This document shows positions 367-16,278 of a stretch of DNA of 64,000 nt, one piece after another. Both the position numbers and the translations under genes were made by a program. Below the pieces are notes generated by a model. It did no database searches, was not told where the DNA came from, and was given only the letters and a program-made list of their open reading frames with translations. This DNA comes from Martinezella lusitana (GTDB lineage: Bacteria > Pseudomonadota > Alphaproteobacteria > Rhizobiales > Rhizobiaceae), in assembly GCF_010668395.1 (NCBI RefSeq), contig NZ_WUEY01000002.1:186001-250000 (forward strand). The letters are read 5' to 3'. The first letter of the stretch is position 1; each line of letters starts with the position of its first letter.

Positions 367-1010
367 TGACGACGATTGGAACGGAAGACCTGCAGGCACT
401 TTTCGCGCGGCTCGCCGAGGCAATGGCACACGAAAAGGATCGTCTCTGCGCGCTGGACGGCGTCATCGGCGACGCCGATCACGGCATCGCCATGGAACTC
501 GGTTTTGCCGCCGCCGCAAAGGCGGTTTCAGAGCTGGATCCGGCAACGGCAGACCCGACAGCGGTCTTCAATACGGCGGCGAAATCCTTCCTCAATGCCG
601 TGGGCGCCTCGTCCGGACCTCTCTATGCGACGGCCCTCATGCGCGCGGGCGCCGTCGCCAAGGGCAAAACCTCGCTAAGCGAGGACGATATGGTCGATAT
701 AATGACGGCTTTCGCCAAGGGCATTCAGGACCGGGGCAAGGCGGAGGTCGGCGAAAAGACGATGGTCGATGCCTGGGCGCCTGCCGCAGCCGCCTGCCGC
801 GACGCCCGTGATCGGGGCTTGCCGCTTGCCGACTGTCTTGCAGCCGGCCTCGCGGCGGCCGAAGCGGGAGCAGAAGCGACGAAGGCGATGATCGCCACAA
901 AAGGCAGGTCATCCCGGCTTGGCGACCGCGCTCTGGGGCACATGGATCCGGGGGCGGCTTCGGCGGTGGTGGTGATATCGTGCTTCAAAAGCCACTTCGC
1001 ATTCGAATAG
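366..1010 (+). CDS. dhaL: Dihydroxyacetone kinase, DhaL (nucleotide-binding) subunit
   Basis: A 214-residue protein starting M-T-T-I-G-T at the ATG that overlaps the dhaK stop (TGATG). A longer upstream start at 333 would run back into dhaK and is less likely. D-G-V-I-G-D-A-D-H-G, about 35 residues in, is the Mg-ADP binding motif of DhaL, and G-A-S-S-G-P-L-Y is the next family hallmark. The length matches stand-alone DhaL. With DhaK it would phosphorylate dihydroxyacetone, or a related ketotriose or ketotetrose, to feed glycolysis. The operon ends here, followed by a strong hairpin. Confidence 0.92.
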   Translation: MTTIGTEDLQALFARLAEAMAHEKDRLCALDGVIGDADHGIAMELGFAAAAKAVSELDPATADPTAVFNTAAKSFLNAVGASSGPLYATALMRAGAVAKGKTSLSEDDMVDIMTAFAKGIQDRGKAEVGEKTMVDAWAPAAAACRDARDRGLPLADCLAAGLAAAEAGAEATKAMIATKGRSSRLGDRALGHMDPGAASAVVVISCFKSHFAFE

Positions 1011-1054
1011 CGATCAAGGCTGCTGATAATTTAATAGAATAGAAAGATATAAGA

Positions 1055-1082
1055 AGCTGAGAAATATATATTTTTCTCAGCT
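1055..1082. terminator. Bidirectional intrinsic terminator between dhaL and the convergent oxidoreductase
   Basis: AGCTGAGAAA at 1055-1064 pairs perfectly with TTTCTCAGCT at 1073-1082 around an AT-only loop. T-rich sequence follows on the plus strand and A-rich sequence precedes it, so it can stop transcription arriving from either side. It sits in the 115 bp between two convergent genes. Confidence 0.8.
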
Positions 1083-1125
1083 CTTTCTGTTGATTTTCGG
1101 CCGCTCAGCGACACACCCGGCGACT

Positions 1126-3168
1126 TCACAGCAGCGAGCAATAGCGCAACGCATCGTAGATGGCAGCGTGGATATTGCGGCTCGCGATGGCGTCCCCGAT
1201 GCGGATCAGATCGAAGGAGCCGGCCTCGTTCTTCGCTGGCAATGGCGGGCGGCGCGCTATCAGGGCTGGATAGTCGATAGCGCCGAGGTTGCGCGACAGC
1301 GGTTTCAAGTCGAGGTAAAGCTCGTCATTGGCCATCGTGCCGTGCTCGACGACCACCTGGGACACTCGACGCTCCCATTGGGTCTGCTCGGAAAAATCGG
1401 AGCCCAGGACCGCGACAAGGACGTTTCCGTCGCGCCGTACCGATTTGAGCCGCGTATTGATGGTGACACGGACGTTCTTCTCGGCGAAGGCTTTCGCATA
1501 GGGCACATGGTTCATGCCGCCCATTTCCGGCGCAAAGAAACGCTCCGGCGAAACCAGTTCAAGTTCGGCGCCGCTATTGGCGATGACCTCGGCGGCCGAC
1601 ATGCCCGGATGCCCGCCATTGTCGTCGTAGAGCAGGACCTGGCCCTCGGGCTTGATCGCGCCTGCGAGAATATCCCATGACGAGGTGACGAGCGCGTCAC
1701 CCCCCTCCAGCTCAGGAGATTGCGCGATACCGCCGGTCGCCACAACGACAAGATCAGGCGCGAAAGCCATCACCTCATCGGCGCCGGCATAGACGTCGTA
1801 GTGAATGGTGACATCGAGACGTTCCAACTCCGCAAGCCGCCAATCGATGATGCCGATCATCTCCTTGCGCCTCGGATTGCGGGTCAGAAGATTCACCTGT
1901 CCGCCGGCCTTGCTGCTCGCCTCCAGCACGTCGACGGTGTGGCCGCGCTCGGCAAGCACGCGTGCCGCCTCCAGACCCGCAGGGCCAGCTCCGATGACGA
2001 CGGCCTTGCGCGGCGCGACTGCACGCTCGATCCGGTGCGGCATCTCGGCCTCGCGGCCGGTTGCCGCATTGTGAATACAGAGCGCTTCGCCGCCCTCATA
2101 GATGCGGTCGAGACAGTAGGTTGCTCCCACACAGGGGCGAATATGGGCTTCCTGTCCGGACATCACCTTGCTGACGATATGCGGGTCGGCAATATGGGCG
2201 CGCGTCATGCCAACCATGTCGAGCTTGCCTTCCGCGATCGCATGGCGCGCTGTGGCGACATCGCCGATGCGGGCCGCGTGGAAGACGGGAAACTTCGTCG
2301 CCGCCCTCACCTCGCCGGCAAAGTCCAGATGCGGTGCCGACGCCATGCCCTGGATCGGAATGACGTTGTTGAGCGCCGCGTCGCTTTCAATATGGCCGCG
2401 AATGATGTTGAGAAAATCGATATTGCCCGATGCGACCAGCCGCCTGGCGATCTCGACACCTTCTTCCCGCGAAAGCCCCTTTTCCCAATCCTCGTCCGCC
2501 ACCATGCGCATGCCGACGATGAAATCCGGCCCGACCGCCTTGCGAATGGCTTGGGTCATCATCCTCGAGAAGCGCATGCGGTTTTCCAGCGAACCGCCGA
2601 ATTCGTCATCCCGCCTGTTCGTGGCCGGCGACCAGAAACCGTCGGTCAGATGGCCATAGGCTTCGATCTCGATACCGTCGAGGCCGGCGGCCTGCATGCG
2701 CTGGGCGGCGGCGGCGAAATCGGCGATGATGCGTTCGATGTCCCAGTCTTCCGCCGTCTTCGGGAAAGCCCGATGCGCCGGTTCGCGGATCGGCGACGGC
2801 GCCAGCACAGGCAACCAGTCGCCCTTGTTCCATCCCGTGCGGCGGCCGAGATGGGTCAATTGGATCATGACCGCGGCGCCGAACTCGTGACAGTCGTCCG
2901 CAAGCTTCTTCAGCCAGGGCACGATCTCGTCGCGATAGGCATGGAGGTTGCCGAAGGCCGGCGGCGAATCCGGCGAAACGACCGCAGACCCCGCCGTCAT
3001 GGTCAGCGCGATGCCGCCCTTGGCTTTTTCGCGATGATAGAGCCTGTATCTGTCCGTCGGCATGCCGCCTTCCGAATAGGCCGGCTCATGCGCCGTCGAC
3101 ATGATGCGGTTCTTCAGCGTCAGGTGCTTGAGCTGATAGGGCTGGAGCAAGGGATCGTTGGAGGTCAT
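1126..3168 (-). CDS. NADH:flavin oxidoreductase / FAD reductase, similar to N-methylproline (stachydrine) demethylase
   Basis: A 680-residue two-part flavoenzyme. Residues 1 to about 350 form an old-yellow-enzyme TIM barrel, and the rest is an FAD/NAD(P)-binding reductase with V-I-G-A-G-P-A-G-L-E. This is the layout of 2,4-dienoyl-CoA reductase, trimethylamine dehydrogenase and rhizobial StcD, and the N-terminus and the C-V-G-A-T-Y-C-L-D-R-I-Y region look closest to StcD as recalled. The start at 3168 (M-T-S-N-D-P-L) matches the StcD N-terminus; an in-frame ATG at 3210 is possible. The expected iron-sulfur motif reads C-x5-C-x11-C, so one of the usual four cysteines is absent. The DMT transporter upstream is probably co-transcribed. 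A role in N-demethylating a betaine-type compound is inferred. Confidence 0.75.
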   Translation of the reverse strand: MTSNDPLLQPYQLKHLTLKNRIMSTAHEPAYSEGGMPTDRYRLYHREKAKGGIALTMTAGSAVVSPDSPPAFGNLHAYRDEIVPWLKKLADDCHEFGAAVMIQLTHLGRRTGWNKGDWLPVLAPSPIREPAHRAFPKTAEDWDIERIIADFAAAAQRMQAAGLDGIEIEAYGHLTDGFWSPATNRRDDEFGGSLENRMRFSRMMTQAIRKAVGPDFIVGMRMVADEDWEKGLSREEGVEIARRLVASGNIDFLNIIRGHIESDAALNNVIPIQGMASAPHLDFAGEVRAATKFPVFHAARIGDVATARHAIAEGKLDMVGMTRAHIADPHIVSKVMSGQEAHIRPCVGATYCLDRIYEGGEALCIHNAATGREAEMPHRIERAVAPRKAVVIGAGPAGLEAARVLAERGHTVDVLEASSKAGGQVNLLTRNPRRKEMIGIIDWRLAELERLDVTIHYDVYAGADEVMAFAPDLVVVATGGIAQSPELEGGDALVTSSWDILAGAIKPEGQVLLYDDNGGHPGMSAAEVIANSGAELELVSPERFFAPEMGGMNHVPYAKAFAEKNVRVTINTRLKSVRRDGNVLVAVLGSDFSEQTQWERRVSQVVVEHGTMANDELYLDLKPLSRNLGAIDYPALIARRPPLPAKNEAGSFDLIRIGDAIASRNIHAAIYDALRYCSLL

Positions 3169-3234
3169 GACGCTTTCATCGCTTTTGTGAAATCGAGGCC
3201 AAGCCGTCATCTTTGCCGAGACGGGAGCTTATGG

Positions 3235-4152
3235 CTATAGCTCGTTGAGTTGGACGCGAGCGCGGCGGCCGTGCCTGAGGTCGATGGCGGTATGCCAGAC
3301 GATCGTCGCGAAGATGATCGCACCACCGACGAATGTCGCCACGGGCGGAGTCTCGGAGAAGAAGAGCCAGACCCAGAATGGCGTCAGCACGATTTCCATC
3401 GAGCTGATGAGCGCGGCGTCCGCAGCGGGCATCTTTCTCGACCCAAAAAGGAAAAGAACAAAGGCCAGCGCGAAATTCGTCGCCCCGAAAGCGGCAAGCA
3501 GAAGCCAGTTTTGAAGGTCTACCGAGCTTGTCGAAGCGAAGGGCACGAAGATCACGAATGTCAGCAGCCCGCTGACGACGCTCGAGGGCAGGATCGGAAT
3601 GCTGCGATCCATGCGCGGGATGACGATGATCAGCGCGAAGGTGATCGTCATGCCGAGCGCGAGCAGATCGCCGACACCCGTGCCGCCGCCGATCGACGAG
3701 GCCACGATGACGGCGACGCCGATGAGACAGACGCCACCGGCAATCAATGTCCGCTTCGCCACACGCTCCTTCAGCATGGCCCAGCTGAGAAACGCCGCGA
3801 TAAATGGCGCCGTCGCGTAGATCATGGTCACATTTGCAACCGTGGTCATGTAGAGCGCGCCGATGAAGCAGGCCTGACTTATCATCTGGCACGCCAGCAT
3901 CGCCAGACCGGCCGGATGGAAGATCGATGCCCATTGCCGCCGCGAAAACCCACCTTCGAGGAAAAAGCTGGGTATCAGCAGGAACAGGCCGCCGAACAGC
4001 GACCGCCAGGCGATCGCCGTCCATATGTCCGCGGTCAGAAGGCGTGCGTAGATGCCGCTGCAGCTCCACGCAAGCATCGCCGTAGCCACAAGTATGACGC
4101 CCCTCTCGTAATCGCTGGCAAAAGCGGAGCGGGCCGGTAACTGGAATGTCAT
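3235..4152 (-). CDS. DMT-family (EamA) membrane transporter
   Basis: A 305-residue protein with about ten hydrophobic segments in two EamA halves, a short charged N-terminus and a basic C-terminal tail, all usual for drug/metabolite transporters. It runs in the same direction as the oxidoreductase 66 bp downstream and is divergent from the LysR gene, so it is probably the first gene of a LysR-controlled two-gene operon. Substrate and direction cannot be read from the sequence; import or export of a metabolite of the neighbouring demethylase is an inference. The ribosome-binding site before ATG 4152 is weak. Confidence 0.8.
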   Translation of the reverse strand: MTFQLPARSAFASDYERGVILVATAMLAWSCSGIYARLLTADIWTAIAWRSLFGGLFLLIPSFFLEGGFSRRQWASIFHPAGLAMLACQMISQACFIGALYMTTVANVTMIYATAPFIAAFLSWAMLKERVAKRTLIAGGVCLIGVAVIVASSIGGGTGVGDLLALGMTITFALIIVIPRMDRSIPILPSSVVSGLLTFVIFVPFASTSSVDLQNWLLLAAFGATNFALAFVLFLFGSRKMPAADAALISSMEIVLTPFWVWLFFSETPPVATFVGGAIIFATIVWHTAIDLRHGRRARVQLNEL

Positions 4153-4173
4153 GTAATGGACTCAGGAACAGAA

Positions 4174-4238
4174 GGAACGTTCCCTGTGTGCGCCGATATT
4201 TGACATCAGGCAAACGAATAGTAGAGATAGTAGCTATC
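4174..4238. promoter_or_regulatory. Divergent LysR-type control region
   Basis: The 106 bp between the transporter and the LysR gene holds a perfect palindrome GGAACGTTCC at 4174-4183 and a perfect inverted repeat GATAG-TAG-CTATC at 4226-4238. The second lies about 20 bp before the LysR start. Divergent placement and dyads of this kind are typical of LysR autoregulation, but which dyad is bound is a guess. Confidence 0.4.
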
Positions 4239-4258
4239 GGAAATATTTGTGACCCGTC

Positions 4259-5134
4259 ATGCGCGAACCCATCGAAAGCGACCTGCTGCGGACCTTTCTC
4301 GTCATCACCGAGACGTCCAATTTTTCGGCCGCGGCGCAAAGGATCGGCCGGACGCAATCGGCGGTGAGTGCCCAGATAAAGCGGCTCGAGGAAACCATCG
4401 GCGAAGCCGTGTTTGAAAGAAGCGCCCGGGGAGCCGTGTTGACACGCGCGGGCAACCAGCTGCTCCCCTATGCGCAGAGGGTGATCGAACTCCTGAACGA
4501 GGCTGCGGCGACCATCCGCACCAAGCCTCTGGATGGTCCGGTTCGGATCGGGATTCCGGAAGAATACAGCCAGACCGTTCTTCCGGCGGCGCTGGCCGCC
4601 TTTGCTATCCGGCATCCAGCCGTCGAGGTCACGGTCTCATGCGACTATACGGCCCATAATCTGACCGCTCTGGAGAAGGACGAGCTGGACCTTGCCGTCG
4701 TCTTCGATTGGAGCAACCAGACGAAAGGCGAAGTCCTGTGTATCGACCCCACCGTCTGGGTAACATCCATGGTGCATCGGTTGCACGACGCCGTGCCACT
4801 GCCCATCGCAACCTATCGGAATTCGACATGGGCGCGCGATTTCGCCTTGCGCTCCTTGGAGCAGCAAGGCCGCGCCTATCGTATCGCCTTCATCGCCGAT
4901 ACGAGTTCGGGCTTGAAGAATGCCGTTTCCGCCGGGCTTGCCGTGACGACGCTGTCGCGCAGCAACATTCCGCATGGCTGCCGGGAATTGACGAGCGACG
5001 ACGGGTTTCCGCCGGTCGATTCCTCGCGCGTCGTGCTTCGCCGCAATCCCTATCATTCGAGCGAGGCGATCCGCGAGCTGGCGGACATGGTGCGCGAAGC
5101 CTTCCAGCCTATGTCGGCTCTGCTGCAGCCGTAG
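4259..5134 (+). CDS. LysR-family transcriptional regulator
   Basis: 291 residues. The winged helix-turn-helix covers about residues 6-65 (F-S-A-A-A-Q-R-I-G-R-T-Q-S-A-V-S is the helix-turn-helix) and a periplasmic-binding-like effector domain starts near 90. It is divergent from the DMT transporter/demethylase pair, its most likely target. Its 3' end overlaps the 3' end of the convergent CdhR-like gene by 26 bp. Confidence 0.9.
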   Translation: MREPIESDLLRTFLVITETSNFSAAAQRIGRTQSAVSAQIKRLEETIGEAVFERSARGAVLTRAGNQLLPYAQRVIELLNEAAATIRTKPLDGPVRIGIPEEYSQTVLPAALAAFAIRHPAVEVTVSCDYTAHNLTALEKDELDLAVVFDWSNQTKGEVLCIDPTVWVTSMVHRLHDAVPLPIATYRNSTWARDFALRSLEQQGRAYRIAFIADTSSGLKNAVSAGLAVTTLSRSNIPHGCRELTSDDGFPPVDSSRVVLRRNPYHSSEAIRELADMVREAFQPMSALLQP

Positions 5135-6101
5135 GGCGTCGGCGTAGCCTGCGGCGCGTGCCGGAGGGGCTTTCGGAAAAGCTTGCCCGGTAGCTGCGCG
5201 AAAATGCCGATGCAGAATTGAAGCCGGTCGCGGCCGCGATCTCGGCAAAGGAAGCCTTCGTCTCGATGACCTTGCGCCGCGCCGCATTGAGCCTCAGCGC
5301 CAGGTAGTGCACATGCGGCGGCGCGCCGATGCTCTCCTGGAACAACGCCTGCAGGTGGCGCGCACTGACGCCGATGCGCCGCGCCAGGCGGGTGAGAACC
5401 AGCGGCTGCTCGATGTGGTCTTCCATCAGACGGATCGCCTGGGCAACCCGCGGATCCCGCATCCGCAGGCCGGCCGTGGACGGTGAAAGCTCCGCCACGC
5501 TCTGCGTGCTGGCCGACTCGTAGATGAACAGGCGGCTGACCTCCAGCGCGAGTGAATAGCCCTGCCGCCGGCGGATGATCTCCAGCATGAGATCGACAGT
5601 GGGCAAGGAGCCGGCGGTGGTGATGCGCTTGCCATCGATCACGAAGCGATCCTTCACGGCGCGTACCTGCGGATAGGCAAGCCCGAAATCGTCGAAATCC
5701 TCCCAGTGAACGGCGGCCGCAATGTTGTCCAGCAGGCTCGCCTCGGCAAGCAGCCAAGTGCCGGACTCGATGCCGGCGACCATCGAACGGTGGCGTGCGG
5801 TTTGCGACAATTGCATCTTCAACGCCTGCGTGGCGCTGCGCCGCCAATTGTAGCTGGCAAGCACGAAAAGCGGTGTCGTGTCCGATGTCGGTTTGAAACT
5901 GGAGGAGGCTGGCACCGGGATAAGGCTGGTCGTTTCCGCCGGCGAACCATCCGGCGTGAAGAGACGCCAGCGATAGAGCTCGGCTCCGGAAATACGGTTG
6001 GCCCCGCGCAACGGTTCGATGACCGAAGCAATCAGAATCAGGTTCGTCTCCGGAAGGATCAGGAGGTCGATATCGAGCGTCTCGTTGGCGGAAGTGAGCA
6101 T
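5109..6101 (-). CDS. cdhR: GATase1/AraC regulator, probable carnitine regulator CdhR
   Basis: A 330-residue GlxA-type regulator with an N-terminal DJ-1/PfpI-like amidotransferase fold (about 1-190) and a C-terminal AraC double helix-turn-helix (about 215-315, with L-A-R-R-I-G-V-S-A-R-H-L and the second motif A-A-A-T-G-F-N-S-A-S-A-F). ATG 6101 is chosen because AAGGAA precedes it; upstream in-frame starts would lie across the intergenic region. In Pseudomonas, CdhR of this family activates carnitine dehydrogenase genes, and this gene is divergent from the cdhC/cdhAB operon. Carnitine or a metabolite as inducer is inferred from that context. Confidence 0.8.
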   Translation of the reverse strand: MLTSANETLDIDLLILPETNLILIASVIEPLRGANRISGAELYRWRLFTPDGSPAETTSLIPVPASSSFKPTSDTTPLFVLASYNWRRSATQALKMQLSQTARHRSMVAGIESGTWLLAEASLLDNIAAAVHWEDFDDFGLAYPQVRAVKDRFVIDGKRITTAGSLPTVDLMLEIIRRRQGYSLALEVSRLFIYESASTQSVAELSPSTAGLRMRDPRVAQAIRLMEDHIEQPLVLTRLARRIGVSARHLQALFQESIGAPPHVHYLALRLNAARRKVIETKASFAEIAAATGFNSASAFSRSYRASFSESPSGTRRRLRRRPTAAAEPT

Positions 6102-6136
6102 CGCGCATTCCTTCGATATTTCCGAAACTGTATTAT

Positions 6137-6159
6137 ATGCTTCCAATAATGCAAAGCAT
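6137..6159. promoter_or_regulatory. Candidate CdhR operator in the cdhR-cdhC divergent promoter
   Basis: ATGCTT at 6137-6142 is mirrored by AAGCAT at 6154-6159, with an 11-bp AT-rich spacer, in the middle of the 106 bp between the divergent cdhR and cdhC genes. The overlapping TATTATATG could be a -10 element for cdhC. The site is proposed by eye only. Confidence 0.4.
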
Positions 6160-6207
6160 GAAGGCGTCTCATGGCTCGTAATGTCCTTAATACGAGGGAG
6201 AACAAAA

Positions 6208-7110
6208 ATGCCTCTTGCGATGAACAGAGATGTTTTCATCACCTGTGCCGTGACCGGCGCCGGCGACACGGTTTCCAAATCCAGCCATGTTCCGATCACT
6301 CCCAAGCAGATCGCGGACTCCGCGATCGACGCCGCCAAGGCTGGGGCGGCAGTGGTTCACTGCCATGTCCGCGATCCGGAAACGGGCGCCGCCAGCCGCC
6401 GCAACGAACTCTACAGGGAAGTCACGGACCGGATCCGTTCGGCCGATGTCGATGTGGTGCTGAACCTGACCGCCGGCATGGGTGGCGACCTGATTTTCGG
6501 CGATGTCGAACGTCCGTTGCCTCTGAACGACAGGGGCACCGACATGGCCGGTGCGTCCGAACGCGTCAGCCACGTTGCCGAATGCCTGCCTGAGATCTGC
6601 ACGCTCGATTGCGGCACGATGAACTTCAGTCTCGGCGATTATGTCATGACCAACACGCCCTCAATGCTGAGGGCCATGGCCAAGAAGATGACCGATCTCG
6701 GCGTGCGTCCCGAGATCGAGGCTTTCGATACCGGTCATCTCTGGTTTGCCAAGCAGCTTGCCGAGGAGGGTCTCATCGAGGACCCGGTTCTCATCCAGCT
6801 CTGCATGGGCATCCCCTGGGGGGCGCCCGACGACCTGAACACCTTCATGGCGATGGTCAATAACGTTCCCAAGAGCTGGACCTTCTCGGCCTTTTCCATC
6901 GGCCGCAACGCCATGGCCTATCCGGCAGCCGCGATCCTTGCCGGCGGCAATGTCCGCGTCGGGCTCGAAGACAATCTCTATGCCGGAAAGGGCATGCTCG
7001 CGACCAACGCGCAGCTTGTCGAAAAGGCGGTGCAGGTGGTCGAAGGCATGGGCGCGCGCATCATCGGCCCCGAAGACGTCCGCAAGAAGCTGAAACTGAC
7101 GAAGCGCTGA
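6208..7110 (+). CDS. cdhC: Beta-keto acid cleavage enzyme (BKACE, DUF849): dehydrocarnitine cleavage
   Basis: A 300-residue BKACE protein. A-V-V-H-C-H-V-R-D-P near residue 50 carries the two Zn-ligand His residues, and a second conserved block reads C-G-T-M-N-F. ATG 6208 has GAGGGAG before it; an extension to 5998 would run through the promoter. Known CdhC enzymes transfer acetyl-CoA's CoA onto 3-dehydrocarnitine, giving betainyl-CoA and acetoacetate. First gene of the operon, 7 bp before the dehydrogenase/thioesterase fusion that supplies the preceding and following steps, which supports the substrate assignment within a family of varied specificities. Confidence 0.88.
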   Translation: MPLAMNRDVFITCAVTGAGDTVSKSSHVPITPKQIADSAIDAAKAGAAVVHCHVRDPETGAASRRNELYREVTDRIRSADVDVVLNLTAGMGGDLIFGDVERPLPLNDRGTDMAGASERVSHVAECLPEICTLDCGTMNFSLGDYVMTNTPSMLRAMAKKMTDLGVRPEIEAFDTGHLWFAKQLAEEGLIEDPVLIQLCMGIPWGAPDDLNTFMAMVNNVPKSWTFSAFSIGRNAMAYPAAAILAGGNVRVGLEDNLYAGKGMLATNAQLVEKAVQVVEGMGARIIGPEDVRKKLKLTKR

Positions 7111-7117
7111 GGCCACG

Positions 7118-8608
7118 ATGACCAAGATCAACAAGGCAGCCTGCATCGGCGGCGGCGTCATCGGCGGCGGATGGATCGCCCGTTTCCTGCTGGCCGGCAT
7201 CGATGTCGATGTCTATGACCCGCATCCGGAGGCAAAGCGTATCGTCGGCGAGGTGCTCGCCAATGCCGAAAAAGCCTATGCGATGCTGACCGGCGCGCCG
7301 CTTCCGCCGCGCGGCAGGCTCACATTCCGGGACACGCTGGAAGCGGCCGTCGATGGTGCCGACTGGATACAGGAAAGCGTGCCCGAGCGGCTGGACCTCA
7401 AGCGCAACGTCCTGACGCAGATCGACGCTGCAGCCCGGCCCGATGCCCTGATCGGCTCGTCCACCTCGGGCCTGCTCCCGACAGACCTGCAACGCGACAT
7501 GCGCCACCCCGAGCGCCTCTTCGTCGCCCATCCCTATAACCCCGTCTATCTCCTGCCGCTGGTCGAAATCGTCGGCGGCGAAAAGACCAGTGCTGCAACC
7601 ATCCAGGGGGCGATGGACAGGCTGCCGCCGATCGGCATGAAGGGCGTGCATATCGCCCGGGAGATCGAGGCCTTCGTCGGCGACCGCCTGCTGGAAGCGC
7701 TGTGGCGCGAGGCGCTGTGGCTGATCAAGGACGATATCTGCACCGTCGAAACGCTTGACGACGTCATTCGCTATTCCTTTGGCCTGCGCTGGGCGCAGAT
7801 GGGTCTGTTCCAGACTTATCGCATCGCCGGCGGCGAAGCGGGCATGCGTCACTTCCTGGCGCAATTCGGCCCGGCATTGCAGTGGAACTGGACGAAGCTG
7901 ATGGACGTCGTCGATCTCGACGATGCCCTCGTCGAAAAGATCGGCCGGCAATCGGACGAGCAGGCCGATGGCCTGTCGATCCGCGAACTCGAGCGCATCC
8001 GCGACGAAAACCTCGTCGGCATCCTCCAGAGCCTGAAGGGAAGCCATGGCGGCAAGGGCTGGGGTGCCGGCAAGTTGCTGAAGGATTTCGAGCAGAGCCT
8101 CTGGGCCGCCGGCGGTGGCGAGAAACAGGCGCCGGACGTTGCAAAGCCGCTACGCCTGATCGACACCAAGGTCAGCCCGGCTTGGGTTGATTATAACGGC
8201 CATATGACCGAACACCGCTACCTGCAGGTGTTCGGCGACACGTCGGACGCGCTCCTGCGCCTCATCGGCGTCGATCTCGATTATGTCGAGCGCGGCCATA
8301 GCTATTACACGGTGGAGACCCATATCCGCCATCTCGGCGAAGCCAAGCTCGGGCAGGCCATCCATTCGACCGCGCAGATCCTCGCATCGGACGAAAAGCG
8401 GCTGCATGTGTTCCATGCGCTGCACGACACGGTGAGCGGCGACGTCATCGCGACAGGGGAACAGATGCTGCTGCATGTCGATGCCAAGGCGGGCAAGGCC
8501 GTTGCCGCACCGGAGGAGGTGCTGAGCAAACTGAGGCCGATCGCCGCGGCGCATGCAGCCTTGCCAGTGCCGGAGGGAGCCGGCCGTCATGTGGGACAAA
8601 AACGCTAG
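7118..8608 (+). CDS. cdhAB: L-carnitine 3-dehydrogenase fused to betainyl-CoA thioesterase
   Basis: 496 residues. Residues 1 to about 310 are a 3-hydroxyacyl-CoA-dehydrogenase-like NAD enzyme, with the Rossmann motif G-G-G-V-I-G-G-G-W at 10-18 and a conserved H-P-Y-N-P segment. From about 345 a hotdog (4HBT) domain begins, recognised by V-D-Y-N-G-H-M. In Pseudomonas these are separate CdhA and CdhB proteins; here they are joined by a short Gly/Lys-rich linker. The fused protein would oxidise carnitine to dehydrocarnitine and hydrolyse the betainyl-CoA made by CdhC to glycine betaine. Seven bases separate it from cdhC and 12 from the acyl-CoA dehydrogenase. Confidence 0.9.
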   Translation: MTKINKAACIGGGVIGGGWIARFLLAGIDVDVYDPHPEAKRIVGEVLANAEKAYAMLTGAPLPPRGRLTFRDTLEAAVDGADWIQESVPERLDLKRNVLTQIDAAARPDALIGSSTSGLLPTDLQRDMRHPERLFVAHPYNPVYLLPLVEIVGGEKTSAATIQGAMDRLPPIGMKGVHIAREIEAFVGDRLLEALWREALWLIKDDICTVETLDDVIRYSFGLRWAQMGLFQTYRIAGGEAGMRHFLAQFGPALQWNWTKLMDVVDLDDALVEKIGRQSDEQADGLSIRELERIRDENLVGILQSLKGSHGGKGWGAGKLLKDFEQSLWAAGGGEKQAPDVAKPLRLIDTKVSPAWVDYNGHMTEHRYLQVFGDTSDALLRLIGVDLDYVERGHSYYTVETHIRHLGEAKLGQAIHSTAQILASDEKRLHVFHALHDTVSGDVIATGEQMLLHVDAKAGKAVAAPEEVLSKLRPIAAAHAALPVPEGAGRHVGQKR

Positions 8609-8620
8609 GAGGAAGCGATC

Positions 8621-9781
8621 GTGAATTTCGGACTCAGCGAAGAACAGGAGATGATCGTCCAGACGGTCAGGGACTTCGTGGAGACGGAGATCTATCCGCA
8701 CGAGAACGAGGTCGAGCGCACCGGCATCGTGCCTCCGGACCTCGGGGACGAGATCCGGCGCAAATGCATCGAGCTCGGCTTCTATGCCTGCAGCTTTCCC
8801 GAGGAGATCGGTGGTGCCGGCCTCGATCATCTGACCTTCACGCTCGTCGAACGCGAGCTCGGCCGCGGCTCGATGGCGCTCACCGTCTTCTTTGGACGTC
8901 CCTCCGGCATCCTGATGGCCTGCGAGGGCGAACAGCGCGAGCGCTATCTCCTGCCGGCGGTACGCGGGGAAAGGATCGATGCGCTTGCCATCACCGAGCC
9001 CGACGCCGGCTCCGACATGCGCGGCATGAAATGCGTGGCGCGACAGGATGGCGATGATTTCATCCTCAACGGCACCAAGCATTTCATTTCGCACGCCGAC
9101 GTCGCCGATTTCGTCATCGTCTTTGCCGCAACCGGCGAGGAAGATACCCATAGGGGCGTCAAGAAGAAGATCACCGCCTTCCTGGTCGATCGCGGCACGC
9201 CGGGCTTCGATATCCTGAAAGGCTATGACTCGGTTTCCCATCGCGGCTATCACAACTGCATCCTGAACTTCACCGACTGCCGACTGCCGAAATCGCAGGT
9301 GCTCGGCGAAGTGCATCGCGGCTTCGATCTTGCCAACCAATGGCTCTACGGCACGCGCCTGACGGTCGCCGCCACCTGCGTCGGCCGGGCGCGCCGCGTC
9401 TTCGATCTCGCCCTGCCCTATGCCGCCGAGCGCAAGCAGTTCGGCAAGCCGATCGGCGCCAATCAGGGCGTGTCGTTCAAACTTGCCGACATGATTACCG
9501 AGATCGACGCCGCCGACCTTCTGACGCTGTCCGCCGCCTGGAAACTGGATGCCGGCATCCCGGCCAATCGCGAGATCGCGTCGGCCAAGCTCTACGCCTC
9601 CGAGATGCTCGCACGCGTCACCGACGAAGCGATCCAGATCTTCGGCGGCATGGGATTGATGGACGATCTCCCGCTTGCCCGCTTCTGGCGCGACGCCCGC
9701 GTCGAGCGCATATGGGACGGCACCTCGGAAATCCAGCGGCACATCATCAGCCGCGACCTGCTTCGCCCGTTCGGAGCATGA
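8621..9781 (+). CDS. Acyl-CoA dehydrogenase, probable gamma-butyrobetainyl-CoA (crotonobetainyl-CoA forming) dehydrogenase
   Basis: A 386-residue FAD acyl-CoA dehydrogenase of full length. A-I-T-E-P-D-A-G-S-D near 125 is the FAD/substrate signature, Y-A-A-E-R-K-Q-F-G-K-P and I-Q-I-F-G-G-M-G are the later ones. The position of the usual catalytic Glu (I-Y-E-G-T in medium-chain enzymes) reads I-W-D-G-T, with Asp near residue 366. Placed between the carnitine genes and caiD, it is best read as converting gamma-butyrobetainyl-CoA to crotonobetainyl-CoA, though similarity alone would not tell this substrate. The start is ATG-less in appearance upstream: GTG at 8621 follows AGGAAGCGATC. Confidence 0.8.
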   Translation: MNFGLSEEQEMIVQTVRDFVETEIYPHENEVERTGIVPPDLGDEIRRKCIELGFYACSFPEEIGGAGLDHLTFTLVERELGRGSMALTVFFGRPSGILMACEGEQRERYLLPAVRGERIDALAITEPDAGSDMRGMKCVARQDGDDFILNGTKHFISHADVADFVIVFAATGEEDTHRGVKKKITAFLVDRGTPGFDILKGYDSVSHRGYHNCILNFTDCRLPKSQVLGEVHRGFDLANQWLYGTRLTVAATCVGRARRVFDLALPYAAERKQFGKPIGANQGVSFKLADMITEIDAADLLTLSAAWKLDAGIPANREIASAKLYASEMLARVTDEAIQIFGGMGLMDDLPLARFWRDARVERIWDGTSEIQRHIISRDLLRPFGA

Positions 9782-9785
9782 GCCC

Positions 9786-11843
9786 ATGACGCAGCACTCG
9801 CTCGACCGCCTCATCAGACCCAGAACGATCGCCGTCTTCGGCGGTCGCGAGGCGCGACGGGTCATCGAACAATGCGATCTCATGGGGTTTGCCGGCAAGA
9901 TCTGGCCGGTGCACCCGACACAGGAAAGCGTGCTCGGCCGCCGCTGCTATCGGTCGGTCGCCGAGCTGCCGGATGCGCCGGACGCCGCCTTCGTCGGCGT
10001 CAACCGGACGCTTACCGTCGATATCGTGCGGGAACTTTCCGCCAAAGGCGCCGGCGGCGCCGTCTGCTACGCCTCGGGCTTCAGCGAGGCGGTTGCGGAA
10101 CTGACCGACGGGGCGGATTTGCAGCAAGCCCTGGTCGAGGCGGCCGGCGCCATGCCGATCGTCGGCCCGAACTGCTATGGCGTGATCAACGGCCTCGACG
10201 GCGCCCTGCTCTGGCCTGACCAGCACGGCATCGTGCGCACGGAGCGCGGTGTTGCGATCCTCACCCAATCCTCCAACATCGCCATCAATCTCAGCATGCA
10301 GAGGCGCGGCCTGCCCATCAGCTATCTGATGACGGCGGGCAACCAGGCGCAGATCGGCTTGTCGGATCTTGCCTGTGCGGTTCTCGAAGATCCTCGCGTC
10401 ACCGCAGTCGGCCTGCATATCGAAGGCTTCGGTGATATCCGGGCGCTGGAGGCGCTGGCAACGCGCGCCAGGGAGCTCAAGAAACCCGTCATTGCGCTGA
10501 AAGTCGGCAAATCCGAACAGGCGCAGCGCGCAACTGTATCCCACACGGCCTCGCTAGCCGGCAGCGACGCTGTTGCCGACGCCGTTTTCGATCGCCTCGG
10601 CATCGGTCGTGTTTCGACCTTGCCGGAGCTGATCGAAACGCTGAAGCTCCTGCATGTCGCAGGCCCGCTCGAAAGCAATGCGATCTCCTCGATGAGCTGT
10701 TCGGGCGGCGAGGCGTCGCTGATGGCCGATGCCGCTGTCGGCCGGAATGTCGAGTTTCGTGCCCTGAAGCCCGAGCAATTGCCGGCGCTGCGCGCAAGCC
10801 TCGGCCAGATGGTGACGCTTTCCAATCCGCTCGACTACCACACCTTCGTCTGGGGCGATCTGGCTCGGCAGACCGAGGCTTTCAGTGCCATGTTCGCCGG
10901 CGGCTATGCGCTCAATCTGCTCGTTCTCGACTTCCCGCGCGAGGATCGATGCGACGGCGCGGACTGGATGATCACCGTTTCGGCCGTTGCCGCGGCCGCC
11001 AAGCAGACCGGCGCGCGTGCCGGCATTCTGGCGACGCTGCCTGAAAACATGCCGGAGGCAATCGCGCAGCAACTGATCGAAAACGGCATCGTGCCGCTCT
11101 GCGGCATCAGCGAGGCGCTTGTGGCGGCGGAGATTGCCAGCCGTATCGCCGACGCCTGGAAAAGGCAGCAGCCACTGCCGCTTCTGAGCACGCCGGCCCG
11201 CATGGGCGAGATGGAGACGCTGAGCGAGGCTGCGGCAAAGGCCGAGCTCGCAGCCGCAGGCCTTGCCGTGCCGCGCGGCAAAACCGCCGCCACGGCGGGC
11301 GATGCCGCCGACTGCGCGGAACAACTCGGCTTCCCGGTGGCGCTCAAGGCGCTCGGCGTCGAGCACAAATCCGATGTCGGCGCCGTCAAGCTCAACCTGT
11401 GCGATAGGAATGCCGTCAGAGATGCTGCCGAAGGCATGGCCCATGTCGCGCAAGGATTTCTCGTCGAGCGCATGATCGACCGCCCTCTCGCGGAGCTGAT
11501 CGTCGGCGCGGTCCGCGATCCGGTCGTCGGCTTGGCCCTGACGGTCGGAGCGGGCGGGATTCTCGTGGAATTGCTTGAAGATTCTATCGTTTTGCCGCTT
11601 CCGGTCACGAAAGCCGAGGTCTTGCATGGCATTTCGCGGCTGAAGGTCCGCAAATTGATCGAGGGATTCCGCGGCAATGCAGGCAGCAGCCTCGATATCG
11701 TGGCCGATGCCGTCGTATCAGCGGCAGAATATGTCGTAAAGAATGCCGCACAGCTTGAAGAACTAGACATTAATCCATTGATGGTCCTACCTGAATCTCG
11801 CGGCGTCGTTGCTGCGGATGCTCTCATTCGGCGAAGGAGGTAG
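9786..11843 (+). CDS. NDP-forming acyl-CoA ligase (acetyl-CoA synthetase ADP-forming type), probable betaine-CoA ligase
   Basis: 685 residues in the order CoA-binding Rossmann domain (about 5-130), succinyl-CoA-ligase-like domains (about 140-450) and a C-terminal ATP-grasp domain (about 465-680). T-V-S-H-T-A-S-L-A-G holds the His expected to be phosphorylated during catalysis, and H-K-S-D-V-G lies in the ATP-grasp part. ATG 9786, 4 bp after the preceding stop, is chosen over upstream in-frame codons inside the dehydrogenase gene. In this operon it is the only CoA-activating enzyme, so it probably loads gamma-butyrobetaine, crotonobetaine or carnitine onto CoA, a job done in enterobacteria by AMP-forming CaiC or the transferase CaiB. 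Confidence 0.82.
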   Translation: MTQHSLDRLIRPRTIAVFGGREARRVIEQCDLMGFAGKIWPVHPTQESVLGRRCYRSVAELPDAPDAAFVGVNRTLTVDIVRELSAKGAGGAVCYASGFSEAVAELTDGADLQQALVEAAGAMPIVGPNCYGVINGLDGALLWPDQHGIVRTERGVAILTQSSNIAINLSMQRRGLPISYLMTAGNQAQIGLSDLACAVLEDPRVTAVGLHIEGFGDIRALEALATRARELKKPVIALKVGKSEQAQRATVSHTASLAGSDAVADAVFDRLGIGRVSTLPELIETLKLLHVAGPLESNAISSMSCSGGEASLMADAAVGRNVEFRALKPEQLPALRASLGQMVTLSNPLDYHTFVWGDLARQTEAFSAMFAGGYALNLLVLDFPREDRCDGADWMITVSAVAAAAKQTGARAGILATLPENMPEAIAQQLIENGIVPLCGISEALVAAEIASRIADAWKRQQPLPLLSTPARMGEMETLSEAAAKAELAAAGLAVPRGKTAATAGDAADCAEQLGFPVALKALGVEHKSDVGAVKLNLCDRNAVRDAAEGMAHVAQGFLVERMIDRPLAELIVGAVRDPVVGLALTVGAGGILVELLEDSIVLPLPVTKAEVLHGISRLKVRKLIEGFRGNAGSSLDIVADAVVSAAEYVVKNAAQLEELDINPLMVLPESRGVVAADALIRRRR

Positions 11844-11849
11844 CAGAAG

Positions 11850-12632
11850 TTGCAAGACCCCATTCGTACCCGATGCGAGGACGGCATCCTCGAAGTCATC
11901 ATCGACCGGCCCAAGGCGAATGCCATCGACCTGGCGACCAGCCGCAAGATGGGGCTGATCTTTCGCGATTTCCGCGACGATCCGGACCTGCGCGTCGCCA
12001 TCGTCACCGGCGCGGGCGAAAAATTCTTTTCCGCCGGCTGGGATTTGAAGGCTGCGGCTGATGGTGATGCGGTCGACGGCGACTATGGTGTCGGGGGCTT
12101 CGGCGGCCTGCAGGAGCTGCGCGATCTCAACAAGCCGGTCATCTGCGCCGTCAACGGCATCTGTTGCGGCGGCGGCCTTGAGATCGCACTTTCGGCCGAT
12201 CTTATCATCGCCGCCGCCCACGCGACTTTCGCGCTGCCGGAGATCCGCTCGGGCACCGTCGCCGATGCCGCATCAATCAAGCTGCCGAAGCGCATCCCCT
12301 ATCACATCGCCATGGACATGCTGCTGACCGGCCGCTGGCTCAATGTCGAAGAGGCCCATCGCTGGGGTTTCGTCAACGAAATCGTCATGGCCGACAAGCT
12401 TCTGGACAGGGCATGGGATCTTGCCCGCCTGCTCGCAAGCGGGCCACCGCTCGTCTATGCCGCGATCAAGGAAATCGTTCGCGAAGCGGAGGGTTCGACG
12501 TTTCAGACTGCCATGAACAAGATCACCAAACGGCAGTTTGCGACGGTCGACGCGCTCTATTCGAGCGAAGATCAATTGGAAGGCGCAAGGGCTTTCGCGG
12601 AGAAGCGAGCCCCAATCTGGAAAGGAAAGTAA
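11850..12632 (+). CDS. caiD: Carnitinyl-CoA dehydratase / crotonobetainyl-CoA hydratase
   Basis: A 260-residue crotonase. It resembles enterobacterial CaiD along its whole length (D-R-P-K-A-N-A-I-D, then G-A-G-E-K-F-F-S-A-G-W-D-L-K-A-A-A, and the A-F-A-E-K-R-x-P-x-W-K-G-K ending). The two catalytic Glu positions are kept, in G-G-G-L-E and F-A-L-P-E. The start is TTG at 11850, read because AAGGAGG lies 9 bases upstream overlapping the end of the ligase gene. It hydrates crotonobetainyl-CoA to carnitinyl-CoA, linking the dehydrogenase to the carnitine steps. Last enzyme gene before the ABC importer. Confidence 0.92.
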   Translation: MQDPIRTRCEDGILEVIIDRPKANAIDLATSRKMGLIFRDFRDDPDLRVAIVTGAGEKFFSAGWDLKAAADGDAVDGDYGVGGFGGLQELRDLNKPVICAVNGICCGGGLEIALSADLIIAAAHATFALPEIRSGTVADAASIKLPKRIPYHIAMDMLLTGRWLNVEEAHRWGFVNEIVMADKLLDRAWDLARLLASGPPLVYAAIKEIVREAEGSTFQTAMNKITKRQFATVDALYSSEDQLEGARAFAEKRAPIWKGK

Positions 12633-12759
12633 AAGGCGGCGGCAACCGCAACATCTTCCCGCATGTCGCGGGCAACAGGCTTCAGGCGGAAGAGGAACCG
12701 AGACCTGAAGTGGCTTGCCCGGGAATTTTGTCAACACGGCAAGAAGAAGGAACAGGGGA

Positions 12760-14349
12760 ATGAACGACTATACGAAATATCTGGCAGGCCGCGTCACTGC
12801 GGGCGGCCTCAGCCGCCGCGAATTCATGGGACGCGCAATGGCGGCCGGCGTGACTTTGACGCTCGCCGACAAACTCTTTACCGAAAGTGCGATGGCAGCC
12901 GAACCGAAGCGCGGCGGCCATCTGAAGCTCGGCCTCGAAGGCGGTGCTGCGACCGATTCCAAGGACCCGGCGAAATTCCTGTCTCAGGTCATGTTCTGCA
13001 TCGGCCGCTGCTGGGGCGACATGCTGGTGGAATCCCACCCGCTGACCGGTGCCGCCGTTCCCGCGCTGGCCGAATCCTGGGAGCCGTCGAAGGATGCAGC
13101 CACCTGGACCTTCAAGATCCGCAAGGGCGTCAAGTTCCATAACGGCAAGGAACTGACGATCGACGACGTCGTCGCCACTCTCAAGCGCCATACCGATTCG
13201 AAATCGGAATCCGGCGCGCTCGGCGTGATGAAGTCGATCAAGGAAATCAAGGCTGATGGCGACAACCTCGTCCTGACGCTGACCGAGGGCAACGCCGACA
13301 TGCCGCTGCTCTTGACCGACTACCATCTCGTCATCCAGCCGAATGGCGGCAATGACGATCCTCTCGCCTCGATCGGCACCGGTCCCTACAAGATGGTCAG
13401 CTTCGAGCCCGGCGTGCGCGCCACGTTCGAGCGCAACAAGGACGACTGGCGCACCGATCGCGGCTTTGTCGATAGCGTCGAGATCATCACGATGAACGAT
13501 GCGACGGCTCGTATCGCCGCGCTGTCGTCCGGCCAGGTCCATTACATCAACCGCGTCGACCCGAAGACCGTCGATCTTCTGAAGCGCGCGCCGACCGTCG
13601 ATATCCTGTCCACAGCCGGCCGCGGTCACTACGTCTTCATCATGCATTGCGACAAGGCGCCCTTCGACAACAATGATCTTCGCCTGGCGCTGAAATACGC
13701 CATGGACCGCGAGACCATGGTCAAGAAGATCCTTGGCGGCTACGGCAAGGTCGGCAATGATTTCCCGATCAACAACACCTACGCCCTCTTCCCCGAAGGC
13801 ATAGAGCAGCGCGCCTACGACCCCGACAAGGCCGCCTTCCACTACAAGAAGTCCGGCCACAGCGGCTCGGTATTGCTGCGCACCTCGGAAGTCGCCTTCC
13901 CCGGCGCCGTCGATGCGGCCGTTCTCTATCAGGAAAGCTGCAAGAAGGCCGGGATCGAGATCGAGGTCAAGCGCGAGCCGGGCGACGGCTACTGGACCAA
14001 CGTCTGGAACGTCCAACCCTTTTCCACCTCCTACTGGGGCGGAAGACCGACGCAGGACCAGATGTATTCCACCGCCTACCTGTCGACGGCGGACTGGAAC
14101 GACACCCGCTTCAAGCGCCCGGACTTCGACAAGCTTCTGCTTCAGGCCCGCTCCGAACTGGACGAAGCCAAGCGCAAGGAGCTCTACCGCGCCATGGCGA
14201 TGATGGTGCGCGACGAAGGCGGCGTCATCCTGCCGATGTTCAACGATTTCGTGAACGCCTCCACCAAGCATGTGAAGGGTTATGTCCACGATATCGGCAA
14301 CGACATGTCGAATGGTTACGTCGCCACCCGCGTCTGGCTGGACGCCTGA
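12760..14349 (+). CDS. Peptide-type ABC importer, substrate-binding protein 1 (Tat-exported)
   Basis: 529 residues of the family 5 (DppA/OppA-like) binding proteins. The N-terminus S-R-R-E-F-M-G-R followed by a hydrophobic stretch and A-M-A-A is a twin-arginine signal, so the protein folds in the cytoplasm before export. ATG 12760 is preceded by AAGGAACAGGGG. It heads a complete importer (two permeases and a fused ATPase) 127 bp after caiD, in the same direction, so a betaine or betaine ester or peptide taken up for the pathway is the likely ligand. It is clearly paralogous to the binding protein at 20221-21801. Confidence 0.88.
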   Translation: MNDYTKYLAGRVTAGGLSRREFMGRAMAAGVTLTLADKLFTESAMAAEPKRGGHLKLGLEGGAATDSKDPAKFLSQVMFCIGRCWGDMLVESHPLTGAAVPALAESWEPSKDAATWTFKIRKGVKFHNGKELTIDDVVATLKRHTDSKSESGALGVMKSIKEIKADGDNLVLTLTEGNADMPLLLTDYHLVIQPNGGNDDPLASIGTGPYKMVSFEPGVRATFERNKDDWRTDRGFVDSVEIITMNDATARIAALSSGQVHYINRVDPKTVDLLKRAPTVDILSTAGRGHYVFIMHCDKAPFDNNDLRLALKYAMDRETMVKKILGGYGKVGNDFPINNTYALFPEGIEQRAYDPDKAAFHYKKSGHSGSVLLRTSEVAFPGAVDAAVLYQESCKKAGIEIEVKREPGDGYWTNVWNVQPFSTSYWGGRPTQDQMYSTAYLSTADWNDTRFKRPDFDKLLLQARSELDEAKRKELYRAMAMMVRDEGGVILPMFNDFVNASTKHVKGYVHDIGNDMSNGYVATRVWLDA

Positions 14350-14360
14350 TGCCTCAAGCC

Positions 14361-14418
14361 GGGCGAAAACGCCCTCATCTCTGACGAAGCCGGGGCCGCG
14401 GAAGCCTTTCGCGGTCCC
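14361..14418 (+). other. Two intercistronic hairpins after the binding-protein gene
   Basis: GGGCG-AAAA-CGCCC at 14361-14374 is followed by a 9-bp stem, 14392-14400 with 14410-14418 (one G-U pair), around a 9-base loop. Hairpins directly behind a binding-protein gene usually protect its mRNA and reduce read-through, giving more binding protein than permease. No T-run follows, so they are not called full terminators. Confidence 0.55.
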
Positions 14419-14446
14419 CCCGACGTTTAAGCGCGAGGCATCGGCC

Positions 14447-15454
14447 ATGTCCAATCCACCATCTGGAACCGTTCTGCCTGGGCTGCGGTTCAAACAGCGT
14501 TTTCCGCTGCTGTCCCTGATTATCGAGCGCTGCCTGCTCAGCATTGTCCTGCTGTTTGCGGTCTCCATCCTGATTTTCGGCGGGCTGGAAGCCCTGCCGG
14601 GCGATTTTGCGACCACGTATCTCGGCCAGTCGGCGACGCCGCAGGCGGTCGCCAATATCCGAGAAGAGCTCGGCCTGAACCGGCCCATCGTCACCCGCTA
14701 TGTGGAATGGCTCGGCCATGCCGTGCAGGGCGACTTCGGCACCTCCTGGGCCAGCAAGAACTCCGTCAGCGAGCAGATCGGCAAGCGGCTCGGCAATTCG
14801 CTGTTTCTGGCCGGTTTCGCCGCGCTGATCTCGGTGCCCCTGGCGGTCTGCCTCGGCATGTTGGCCGTGCATTTCAGGAACCGGTTGCCGGACAAGATCA
14901 TCAACGTCATTTCGCTGGCGGCGATCTCGCTGCCGGAATTCTTTATCGGCTACCTGCTGATCATGTTCTTCTCGGTCAAGTACGGCATCGCGACCTTTCC
15001 GGCGACAGTCTATGACGGCATGGGCTTCCTCGATCGGCTGCAGGCGATTGCCCTGCCGACGGCAACGCTGGTGCTGGTCGTGCTCGCCCACATGATGCGC
15101 ATGACCCGCGCGGCCATCCTCTCGGTCATGTCCTCCGCCTATATGGAAACGGCCGAGCTCAAAGGGCTCTCCGCCTTCCGTGCCATCGTCAAGCACGCCG
15201 CCCCCAACGCGCTGGCGCCGATCATCAACGTCATCGCGCTCAACCTTGCCTATCTCATCGTCGGGGTCGTCGTCGTCGAAGTCGTCTTCGTCTATCCCGG
15301 CATGGGCCAGTACATGGTCGATGCCGTTACCGTGCGCGACATGCCGGTCGTCCAGGCCTGCGGCCTGATCTTCGCCGCCGTCTACATCTTCCTCAACATG
15401 ACGGCCGACATTCTGGCGATCGTCGCCAACCCGCGTCTGAGGCATCCGCGATGA
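14447..15454 (+). CDS. Peptide-type ABC importer, DppB-like permease
   Basis: 335 residues with six predicted membrane segments: one near residue 25-50, a large periplasmic loop, then five after about 100. The DppB N-terminal pattern L-P-G-D is present, as is the cytoplasmic EAA-type loop (E-T-A-E-L-K-G-L-S-A-F-R). ATG 14447 follows GAGG by nine bases; the frame stays open upstream but would overlap the previous gene. The last ATGA is shared with the next permease gene. Confidence 0.9.
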   Translation: MSNPPSGTVLPGLRFKQRFPLLSLIIERCLLSIVLLFAVSILIFGGLEALPGDFATTYLGQSATPQAVANIREELGLNRPIVTRYVEWLGHAVQGDFGTSWASKNSVSEQIGKRLGNSLFLAGFAALISVPLAVCLGMLAVHFRNRLPDKIINVISLAAISLPEFFIGYLLIMFFSVKYGIATFPATVYDGMGFLDRLQAIALPTATLVLVVLAHMMRMTRAAILSVMSSAYMETAELKGLSAFRAIVKHAAPNALAPIINVIALNLAYLIVGVVVVEVVFVYPGMGQYMVDAVTVRDMPVVQACGLIFAAVYIFLNMTADILAIVANPRLRHPR

Positions 15455-16278
15455 GATTGAGAGATATCCCCATCACCGCCTGGATCGGCATCATCGGAAT
15501 CCTGATCGCCTTGATCTGCGCGATCTTCGCCCCCTGGATCGCCCCTTACGGCGAGACGGAAGTCGTCGGCAACGTCTGGCAGCCTGCCGACGCGCAATAT
15601 TTCTTCGGCCTTGACAATCTCGGCCGCGATATCCTGTCGCGTCTCATCTACGGCGCCCGCACGACCCTGTTCGTCGCGCTGGCGGCGACGATCATCTCCT
15701 TCTCGCTCGGCATCATCCTGAGCTTTACCGCCGCCGTCTCGCGCGGATTGATCGATACGGTCTTTTCGCGCTTCAACGACCTGATGATGTCGATCCCGAC
15801 GCTGATCTTCGCGCTTGTGGTGCTGGCGGTGCTGCCGCAGAACCTGATCGTGCTGATCCTCGTCATGGCCATTCTCGACTCCACCCGCGTCTATCGCCTC
15901 GGCCGCGCCGTGGCGCTCGACGTCGCCGTCATGGAATTCGTGGAGGCGGCCAAGCTTCGCGGCGAAGGCAGGATCTGGATCATCTTCCGCGAGATCCTGC
16001 CGAATACGCTTTCGCCGTTGCTGGCGGAATTCGGCCTGCGCTTTGCCTTCTCGATCCTGTTCCTGTCCACCCTCTCCTTCCTCGGCCTGGGCATCCAGCC
16101 GCCGTCGGCCGACTGGGGCGGCATGGTCAAGGACAACAAGGACGGCATCATCTTCGGCATTTCCGCCGCCCTCGTGCCGGGCTCCGCCATTGCGGCGCTC
16201 GCTATCTGTGTCAATCTGGTGGTCGACTGGCTCTTGAAGCGCACCTCCAGCCTTAAGGGAGGACGTGGCGATGCCTGA
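15451..16278 (+). CDS. Peptide-type ABC importer, DppC-like permease
   Basis: 275 residues with six membrane segments and the DppC-type N-terminal region F-G-L-D-N-L-G-R-D-I-L-S-R. The EAA loop reads V-E-A-A-K-L-R-G-E-G-R. It overlaps the DppB-like gene by ATGA and the ATPase gene by 8 bp, so the three are translated as one coupled block. Confidence 0.9.
   Translation: MRLRDIPITAWIGIIGILIALICAIFAPWIAPYGETEVVGNVWQPADAQYFFGLDNLGRDILSRLIYGARTTLFVALAATIISFSLGIILSFTAAVSRGLIDTVFSRFNDLMMSIPTLIFALVVLAVLPQNLIVLILVMAILDSTRVYRLGRAVALDVAVMEFVEAAKLRGEGRIWIIFREILPNTLSPLLAEFGLRFAFSILFLSTLSFLGLGIQPPSADWGGMVKDNKDGIIFGISAALVPGSAIAALAICVNLVVDWLLKRTSSLKGGRGDA

Follow-up and report, generated by a model that had tools for sequence, protein, structure and literature searches.

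The five-gene operon and its proposed pathway

Do the five genes at positions 6208-12632 of a 64,000-nt stretch of the Martinezella lusitana genome (assembly GCF_010668395.1, contig NZ_WUEY01000002.1, positions 186,001 to 250,000; the whole stretch is hereafter called the window) make up a complete route to glycine betaine, and is their combination of carnitine-degrading genes with genes for coenzyme A (CoA)-dependent steps an unusual one? Both had been proposed from the sequence alone (the original prediction). We found that the operon is real and well conserved, that its pathway is already known and that its arrangement is common among the Rhizobiaceae. Very probably it allows gamma-butyrobetaine, crotonobetaine and carnitine to be used aerobically, all of which would be converted to glycine betaine; the predicted oxidative direction, from gamma-butyrobetaine via carnitine to glycine betaine, is the best reading of the locus and very likely correct. 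All five genes run in one direction, as predicted, and the expected spacing of 4-12 bp was borne out by gaps of 7, 12, 4 and 6 bases, in order of the genes:

6208-7110, plus strand: cdhC (BKACE family), predicted cleavage of 3-dehydrocarnitine to betainyl-CoA; 300 amino acids, ATG start
7118-8608, plus strand: cdhA-cdhB fusion, L-carnitine 3-dehydrogenase and hot-dog thioesterase; 496 amino acids, ATG start
8621-9781, plus strand: acyl-CoA dehydrogenase, probably gamma-butyrobetainyl-CoA dehydrogenase; 386 amino acids, GTG start
9786-11843, plus strand: nucleoside diphosphate (NDP)-forming acyl-CoA synthetase, probably gamma-butyrobetaine/crotonobetaine--CoA ligase; 685 amino acids, ATG start
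11850-12632, plus strand: crotonase, probably crotonobetainyl-CoA hydratase (CaiD-like); 260 amino acids, TTG start

Gene content, gene order, the residues kept and the conservation across genomes were observed directly. Substrates and the order of the steps are modelled on the characterised pathway of Sinorhizobium meliloti and on the named families, and would be as follows. The ligase would activate gamma-butyrobetaine to gamma-butyrobetainyl-CoA, which the acyl-CoA dehydrogenase would convert to crotonobetainyl-CoA and the hydratase, by addition of water, to L-carnitinyl-CoA (these three are referred to as the upper genes). The thioesterase domain of the fusion would release carnitine from carnitinyl-CoA, the dehydrogenase domain of the same protein would turn carnitine into 3-dehydrocarnitine, and CdhC would convert 3-dehydrocarnitine and acetyl-CoA to betainyl-CoA and acetoacetate; the thioesterase domain would act once more, on betainyl-CoA, to give glycine betaine. 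The activator, probably CdhR-like, would be the product of a divergent AraC-type gene, and a peptide-type ATP-binding cassette (ABC) importer encoded downstream probably takes up the substrate.

Protein families and conserved residues

Protein families were assigned by Pfam and NCBIfam profile matches. Among the matches shown, the fusion is the only one of the five proteins that exceeds an NCBIfam cut-off, reaching 931 bits against the model NF005716 'carnitine 3-dehydrogenase' (cut-off 592). Its Pfam content is 3HCDH_N, 3HCDH and 4HBT_2, the last of these (PF13279) covering residues 352-472 above its cut-off. Gene 2 is a true fusion of a carnitine 3-dehydrogenase with a thioesterase, in agreement with the original prediction. 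S115, H138 and E150 of the dehydrogenase domain as well as D358 and H362 of the thioesterase domain are invariant in all 80 relatives, and we take them to be catalytic by analogy with the families. CdhC matches PF05853 (BKACE) with 325 bits; H51 and H53 are kept in 77 of 78 relatives, the remaining one having a gap there, and E254 in all 78, these three residues presumably being the metal site of the family.

Gene 3 carries the N, M and C domains of acyl-CoA dehydrogenases. The ligase consists of CoA_binding_2, Succ_CoA_lig and ATP-grasp_5, and its His253, which we assume from the family to be the catalytic position, is invariant in 58 of 58 relatives. Gene 5 has a single ECH_1 domain with E111 and E131 invariant in 57 of 57 relatives, both presumably catalytic. 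The label caiD given to it beforehand stands in so far as NF002936, crotonobetainyl-CoA hydratase (CaiD), is the best of the 73 NCBIfam families matched; at 313 bits it falls short of the cut-off of 500, so that caiD is the nearest name for this gene rather than a strict assignment.

In regard to the release of the two CoA esters, the fused thioesterase would act on betainyl-CoA and probably also on carnitinyl-CoA, as had been suggested for want of another obvious enzyme. We found five 4HBT_2 matches in the genome, and the sole one on this contig is the fused domain itself; this search for a separate carnitinyl-CoA thioesterase was confined to the 4HBT_2 family. Two partial matches to electron transfer flavoprotein-ubiquinone oxidoreductase, sought as the electron acceptor of the dehydrogenase, were identified in the genome, each at a contig end.

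Conservation of the gene order

The best 80 of at least 594 relatives of the fused protein in named genomes were used to compare loci, a choice by which near relatives are over-represented. The following identity thresholds, chosen after viewing the locus comparison, defined presence of a gene: 50% for cdhC and the fusion, 55% for the acyl-CoA dehydrogenase, 45% for the ligase, 60% for the hydratase, 60% for the substrate-binding protein and 28% for the regulator. In five loci (L040, L041, L080, L075, L082) the contig ends inside the cluster or shortly after it; with these set aside, 75 informative loci are left. All five genes are present in the same order and on the same strand in 57 of these, with best-segment identities of 68-99% for CdhC, 55-97% for the fusion, 63-97% for the dehydrogenase, 48-92% for the ligase and 71-95% for the hydratase. 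The kept five-gene order is not due to chance. The very small gaps of the window are not general among the full loci, where the medians are 53, 39, 18 and 19 bases and the maxima 535, 766, 750 and 919 bases. Judged by record title, the full sets are mostly those of Rhizobiaceae; they were found in Rhizobium, Neorhizobium, Shinella, Ensifer/Sinorhizobium, Pararhizobium, Ciceribacter, an Agrobacterium, Nitratireductor and some Rhodobacteraceae, among others. The search for the same gene order in other genomes, which the original prediction had put forward as a check, thus returned it widely, and the claim that the two modules are rarely united was not upheld, the S. meliloti pathway having moreover been published in 2019.

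The association is weaker when the class is sampled evenly. Here the fused protein was matched (E ≤ 1e-60) in 48 of 289 genomes, the own genome counted, and 22 of the other 47 were followed further, chosen because the match extends into the thioesterase part. A CdhC relative is present somewhere in the genome in all 22 and a ligase relative (E ≤ 1e-60) in 18, the ligase lying no more than 3 kb from the fusion and on the same strand in only six (G061, G079, G107, G211, G233, G257). Beyond the close relatives, therefore, the two modules are more often than not separated or placed on different contigs. Within the genus the ligase (E ≤ 1e-100) was found in 42 of 60 genomes, again with the own genome counted. 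Among plasmid records, 139 of the 333 that match span 80% or more of the entire stretch. Rhizobium tropici CIAT 899 has it in full length at 88.5% identity. Of the plasmid matches, 6 of the 20 records listed carry annotation under the match, and all six name the same five products.

Comparison with known pathways

The L-carnitine metabolism of S. meliloti has been published (Bazire et al. 2019, J Bacteriol 201:e00772-18, referenced in PMC12482172). The citing passage of PMC12482172 attributes to SM2011_c01638 the conversion of carnitine to 3-dehydrocarnitine and also that of betainyl-CoA to glycine betaine, a dual function which fits the fused gene 2 and bears out the betainyl-CoA half of the predicted double role of its thioesterase. 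We found no difference between the S. meliloti pathway and that of the window, the two being likened via the literature and via congener loci, since the S. meliloti locus, by record title, lies outside the 80. In these Ensifer/Sinorhizobium full loci (L019, L022, L032, L036) the acyl-CoA dehydrogenase, the CoA ligase and the CaiD-like hydratase are united in one cluster as in the window, with some intergenic gaps larger than in the latter. We take these three to be the defining genes of the S. meliloti cluster. The S. meliloti study reportedly describes, in its abstract, five enzymes that take gamma-butyrobetaine to glycine betaine in seven steps, and reportedly places an anabolic cluster beside the catabolic genes. 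If five enzymes indeed carry out seven steps, the hydrolysis of carnitinyl-CoA would belong to the fused thioesterase.

A similar route is described in passages of a review (PMC2131755) for HK4, a soil strain near Rhizobium meliloti, which converts gamma-butyrobetaine to L-carnitine in a way 'analogous but not identical to fatty acid degradation', and grows aerobically on carnitine with a carnitine dehydrogenase step. The Rhizobium/Agrobacterium-like strain is used industrially by Lonza for L-carnitine production from gamma-butyrobetaine (PMC2131755), so the same kind of pathway stands behind this process. The likeness of HK4 to the window is one of route, compared by description only. With this pathway, plant-associated rhizobia could gain glycine betaine, which serves as osmoprotectant and nutrient, from betaines that they encounter in the soil and the rhizosphere. 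As a discovery, the window adds one more genome to a known pathway.

More distant systems share parts of the operon. The caiX-cdhCAB-hocS operon of Pseudomonas aeruginosa with its divergent cdhR (passages of PMC5806209) resembles the window in the three Cdh functions (CdhC, CdhA, CdhB) and in having an AraC-family regulator in divergent orientation; in the window, however, cdhA and cdhB are fused, three genes of the CoA route are added and neither caiX nor hocS is part of the operon. With caiTABCDE of E. coli the window has in common a CaiD-like hydratase, acyl-CoA dehydrogenase and ligase chemistry and the carbon skeleton, but the net direction is opposite, an NDP-forming ligase takes the place of CaiC, and neither CaiB nor CaiT is encoded among the neighbors scanned. 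A route through butyrobetaine dioxygenase (BBOX), which we assume to belong to the TauD family (PF02668), found no support, the own genome giving no match to this family; among 14 control genomes, the family was matched in E. coli. Some Arctic SAR11 combine carnitine dehydrogenase and BKACE with butyrobetaine dioxygenase (passage of PMC12421898), in contrast to the genome of the window with its lack of a TauD-family match.

Alternative readings of the upper genes

Several observations weigh against a full route from gamma-butyrobetaine. In 18 of the 75 informative loci, including two of Rhizobium (L024, L051), the lower genes (cdhC and the fusion) are not accompanied by the upper three; these loci hold the pair of lower genes, or the fusion alone in one case (L034), with enough downstream DNA to judge by, and belong by record title to Ancylobacter, Aurantimonas, Brucella tritici/Ochrobactrum, the two Rhizobium and others. 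This status was judged at the locus. CdhC, the dehydrogenase, the ligase and the hydratase (for the latter among the best 25 of 73 matches) all stay below the NCBIfam cut-offs, so that their substrates are assigned by genomic context and by the work on S. meliloti. The dehydrogenase has an Asp where the usual catalytic residue is Glu. Finally, Table 2 of PMC2131755 assigns a 'gamma-butyrobetaine hydroxylase' activity to HK4 and the strains derived from it, at odds with the text of the same review.

These points leave some room for a reading in which CdhC and the fusion degrade carnitine, and the three upper enzymes form the CoA route of some other short acid or betaine (for instance crotonobetaine alone, or a further onium acid) that feeds into the pathway. 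The loci with the lower genes by themselves and the small number of genomes with a nearby ligase in the class sample would both be expected from it, as would upper enzymes that reach no NCBIfam cut-off. The nearest solved relatives of the ligase also use several different acids, namely 3-hydroxypropionate and 4-hydroxybutyrate CoA ligases and a dimethylsulfoniopropionate (DMSP) lyase. The last of these, 7cm9, is the third-best solved relative (206.5 bits) and matches nearly the full length of the ligase (residues 11-681); it is presumably an ATP- and CoA-dependent enzyme. As DMSP is a sulfonium analogue of such betaines, this likeness fits an onium substrate for the ligase. The ordered union in three quarters of the informative loci (57 of 75) nevertheless speaks against unrelated substrates, carnitinyl-CoA would naturally come from a CaiD-type hydratase, and the published S. 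meliloti pathway reportedly covers the upper steps. We consider this reading improbable and prefer the route from gamma-butyrobetaine. As a separate observation on the ligase, its match to 7cm9 hints that the CoA ligases acting on onium acids may belong together as a branch within the NDP-forming enzymes.

The CoA part could also run in the reductive direction known from Cai systems, from carnitine to gamma-butyrobetaine as an electron sink, since CaiA-like and CaiD-like folds co-occur there and the NCBIfam model that the dehydrogenase matches best describes a reductase (acryloyl-CoA reductase, 309 bits, below the cut-off of 640). The CaiA model NF002885, however, is far from reached with 184 bits (cut-off 540), and none of the neighbors scanned (3235-4152 and 4259-17902 of the window) encodes the transferase CaiB, the ligase CaiC or the antiporter CaiT. 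With the ligase being NDP-forming, the description of the CoA part as a Cai module therefore fails in the strict sense, and we rejected such a module run backwards because the NCBIfam Cai models are not reached. Residue 366 of the dehydrogenase is Asp in 52 of 59 relatives, as in the window protein, and Glu in the other seven, which are the more distant ones (62.5-65.5% identity; the lowest Asp-bearing relative has 76.7%). The aligned position in human short-chain acyl-CoA dehydrogenase is a Glu within the same motif, which we take to be the catalytic base. An acidic residue, needed for dehydrogenation, is hence present in all 59, and the oxidative carnitine-degrading genes are part of the same operon. 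The reductive direction appears highly improbable to us, more so than a different substrate.

Regulator and neighboring genes

The regions on either side of the operon contain a regulator and an importer:

5109-6101, minus strand: AraC-family regulator, GlxA/CdhR-type by its position and the annotation of a relative; 330 amino acids
6102-6207, no strand: divergent intergenic region, presumed promoter/operator; 106 bases
12760-14349, plus strand: ABC substrate-binding protein, family 5 (SBP_bac_5, 266 bits), possible betaine importer
14447-15454, plus strand: ABC permease (BPD_transp_1_N from residue 77 of a long open reading frame)
15451-16278, plus strand: ABC permease (BPD_transp_1, OppC_N)
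16265-17902, plus strand: ABC ATPase with two ATPase domains in a single chain (two ABC_tran stretches)

The regulator matches HTH_18 with 76.5 bits and otherwise only HTH_AraC, and a relative is annotated as 'GlxA family transcriptional regulator'. An AraC-type gene is divergently located upstream in 55 of the 57 full loci and in 16 of 21 lower-module loci. The AraC-family gene cdhR of P. aeruginosa occupies the same divergent position (passage of PMC5806209), and the gene of the window is likely a CdhR-like activator, a role we regard as putative. Several blocks of the 106-base intergenic region look similar by eye across the loci inspected for it; the half-site GGTCGC given for P. aeruginosa CdhR in the passage of PMC5806209 was not seen by eye in the 106 bases of the window. 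A LysR-family regulator gene at 4259-5134 adjoins the AraC-type gene and is probably not part of the cluster, as it was found near the cluster in only 14 of 80 loci (E ≤ 1e-20).

The binding-protein gene follows the operon after 127 bases. For the first permease, the reading frame is open from 14282, and 14447 is the last in-frame start ahead of the conserved domain. The family-5 binding protein is linked to 44 of the 57 full loci and to 5 of 21 lower-module loci; in the other 13 full loci it is absent at the threshold used, within the stretch examined. Carriers of the glycine betaine type or of the BCCT family are known for carnitine and gamma-butyrobetaine. This peptide/nickel-type ABC importer probably takes up a substrate of the pathway, a putative role on which the passages of the S. 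meliloti transportome papers make no statement. That the importer is dedicated to carnitine and gamma-butyrobetaine, and at the same time the rhizobial butyrobetainyl-CoA dehydrogenases are a clade with Glu replaced by Asp, perhaps fitting the fixed positive charge, is a speculative combination that we hold to be rather unlikely.

Among the loci compared, Rhizobium sp. CC-CFT758 (L090, NZ_CP104990.1 331355-352842) carries at 638-4564 a flavin adenine dinucleotide-dependent oxidoreductase and a ring-hydroxylating dioxygenase a few kb from the carnitine cluster, perhaps genes for glycine betaine demethylation; relatives of this dioxygenase in the own genome show only 33% identity and lie on other contigs. 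In Caballeronia udeis (L034), a betaproteobacterium, the fused dehydrogenase (74% identical) is accompanied by the ABC importer; by the thresholds applied, it lacks the upper genes and a close relative of CdhC, a gene content that suggests horizontal transfer.

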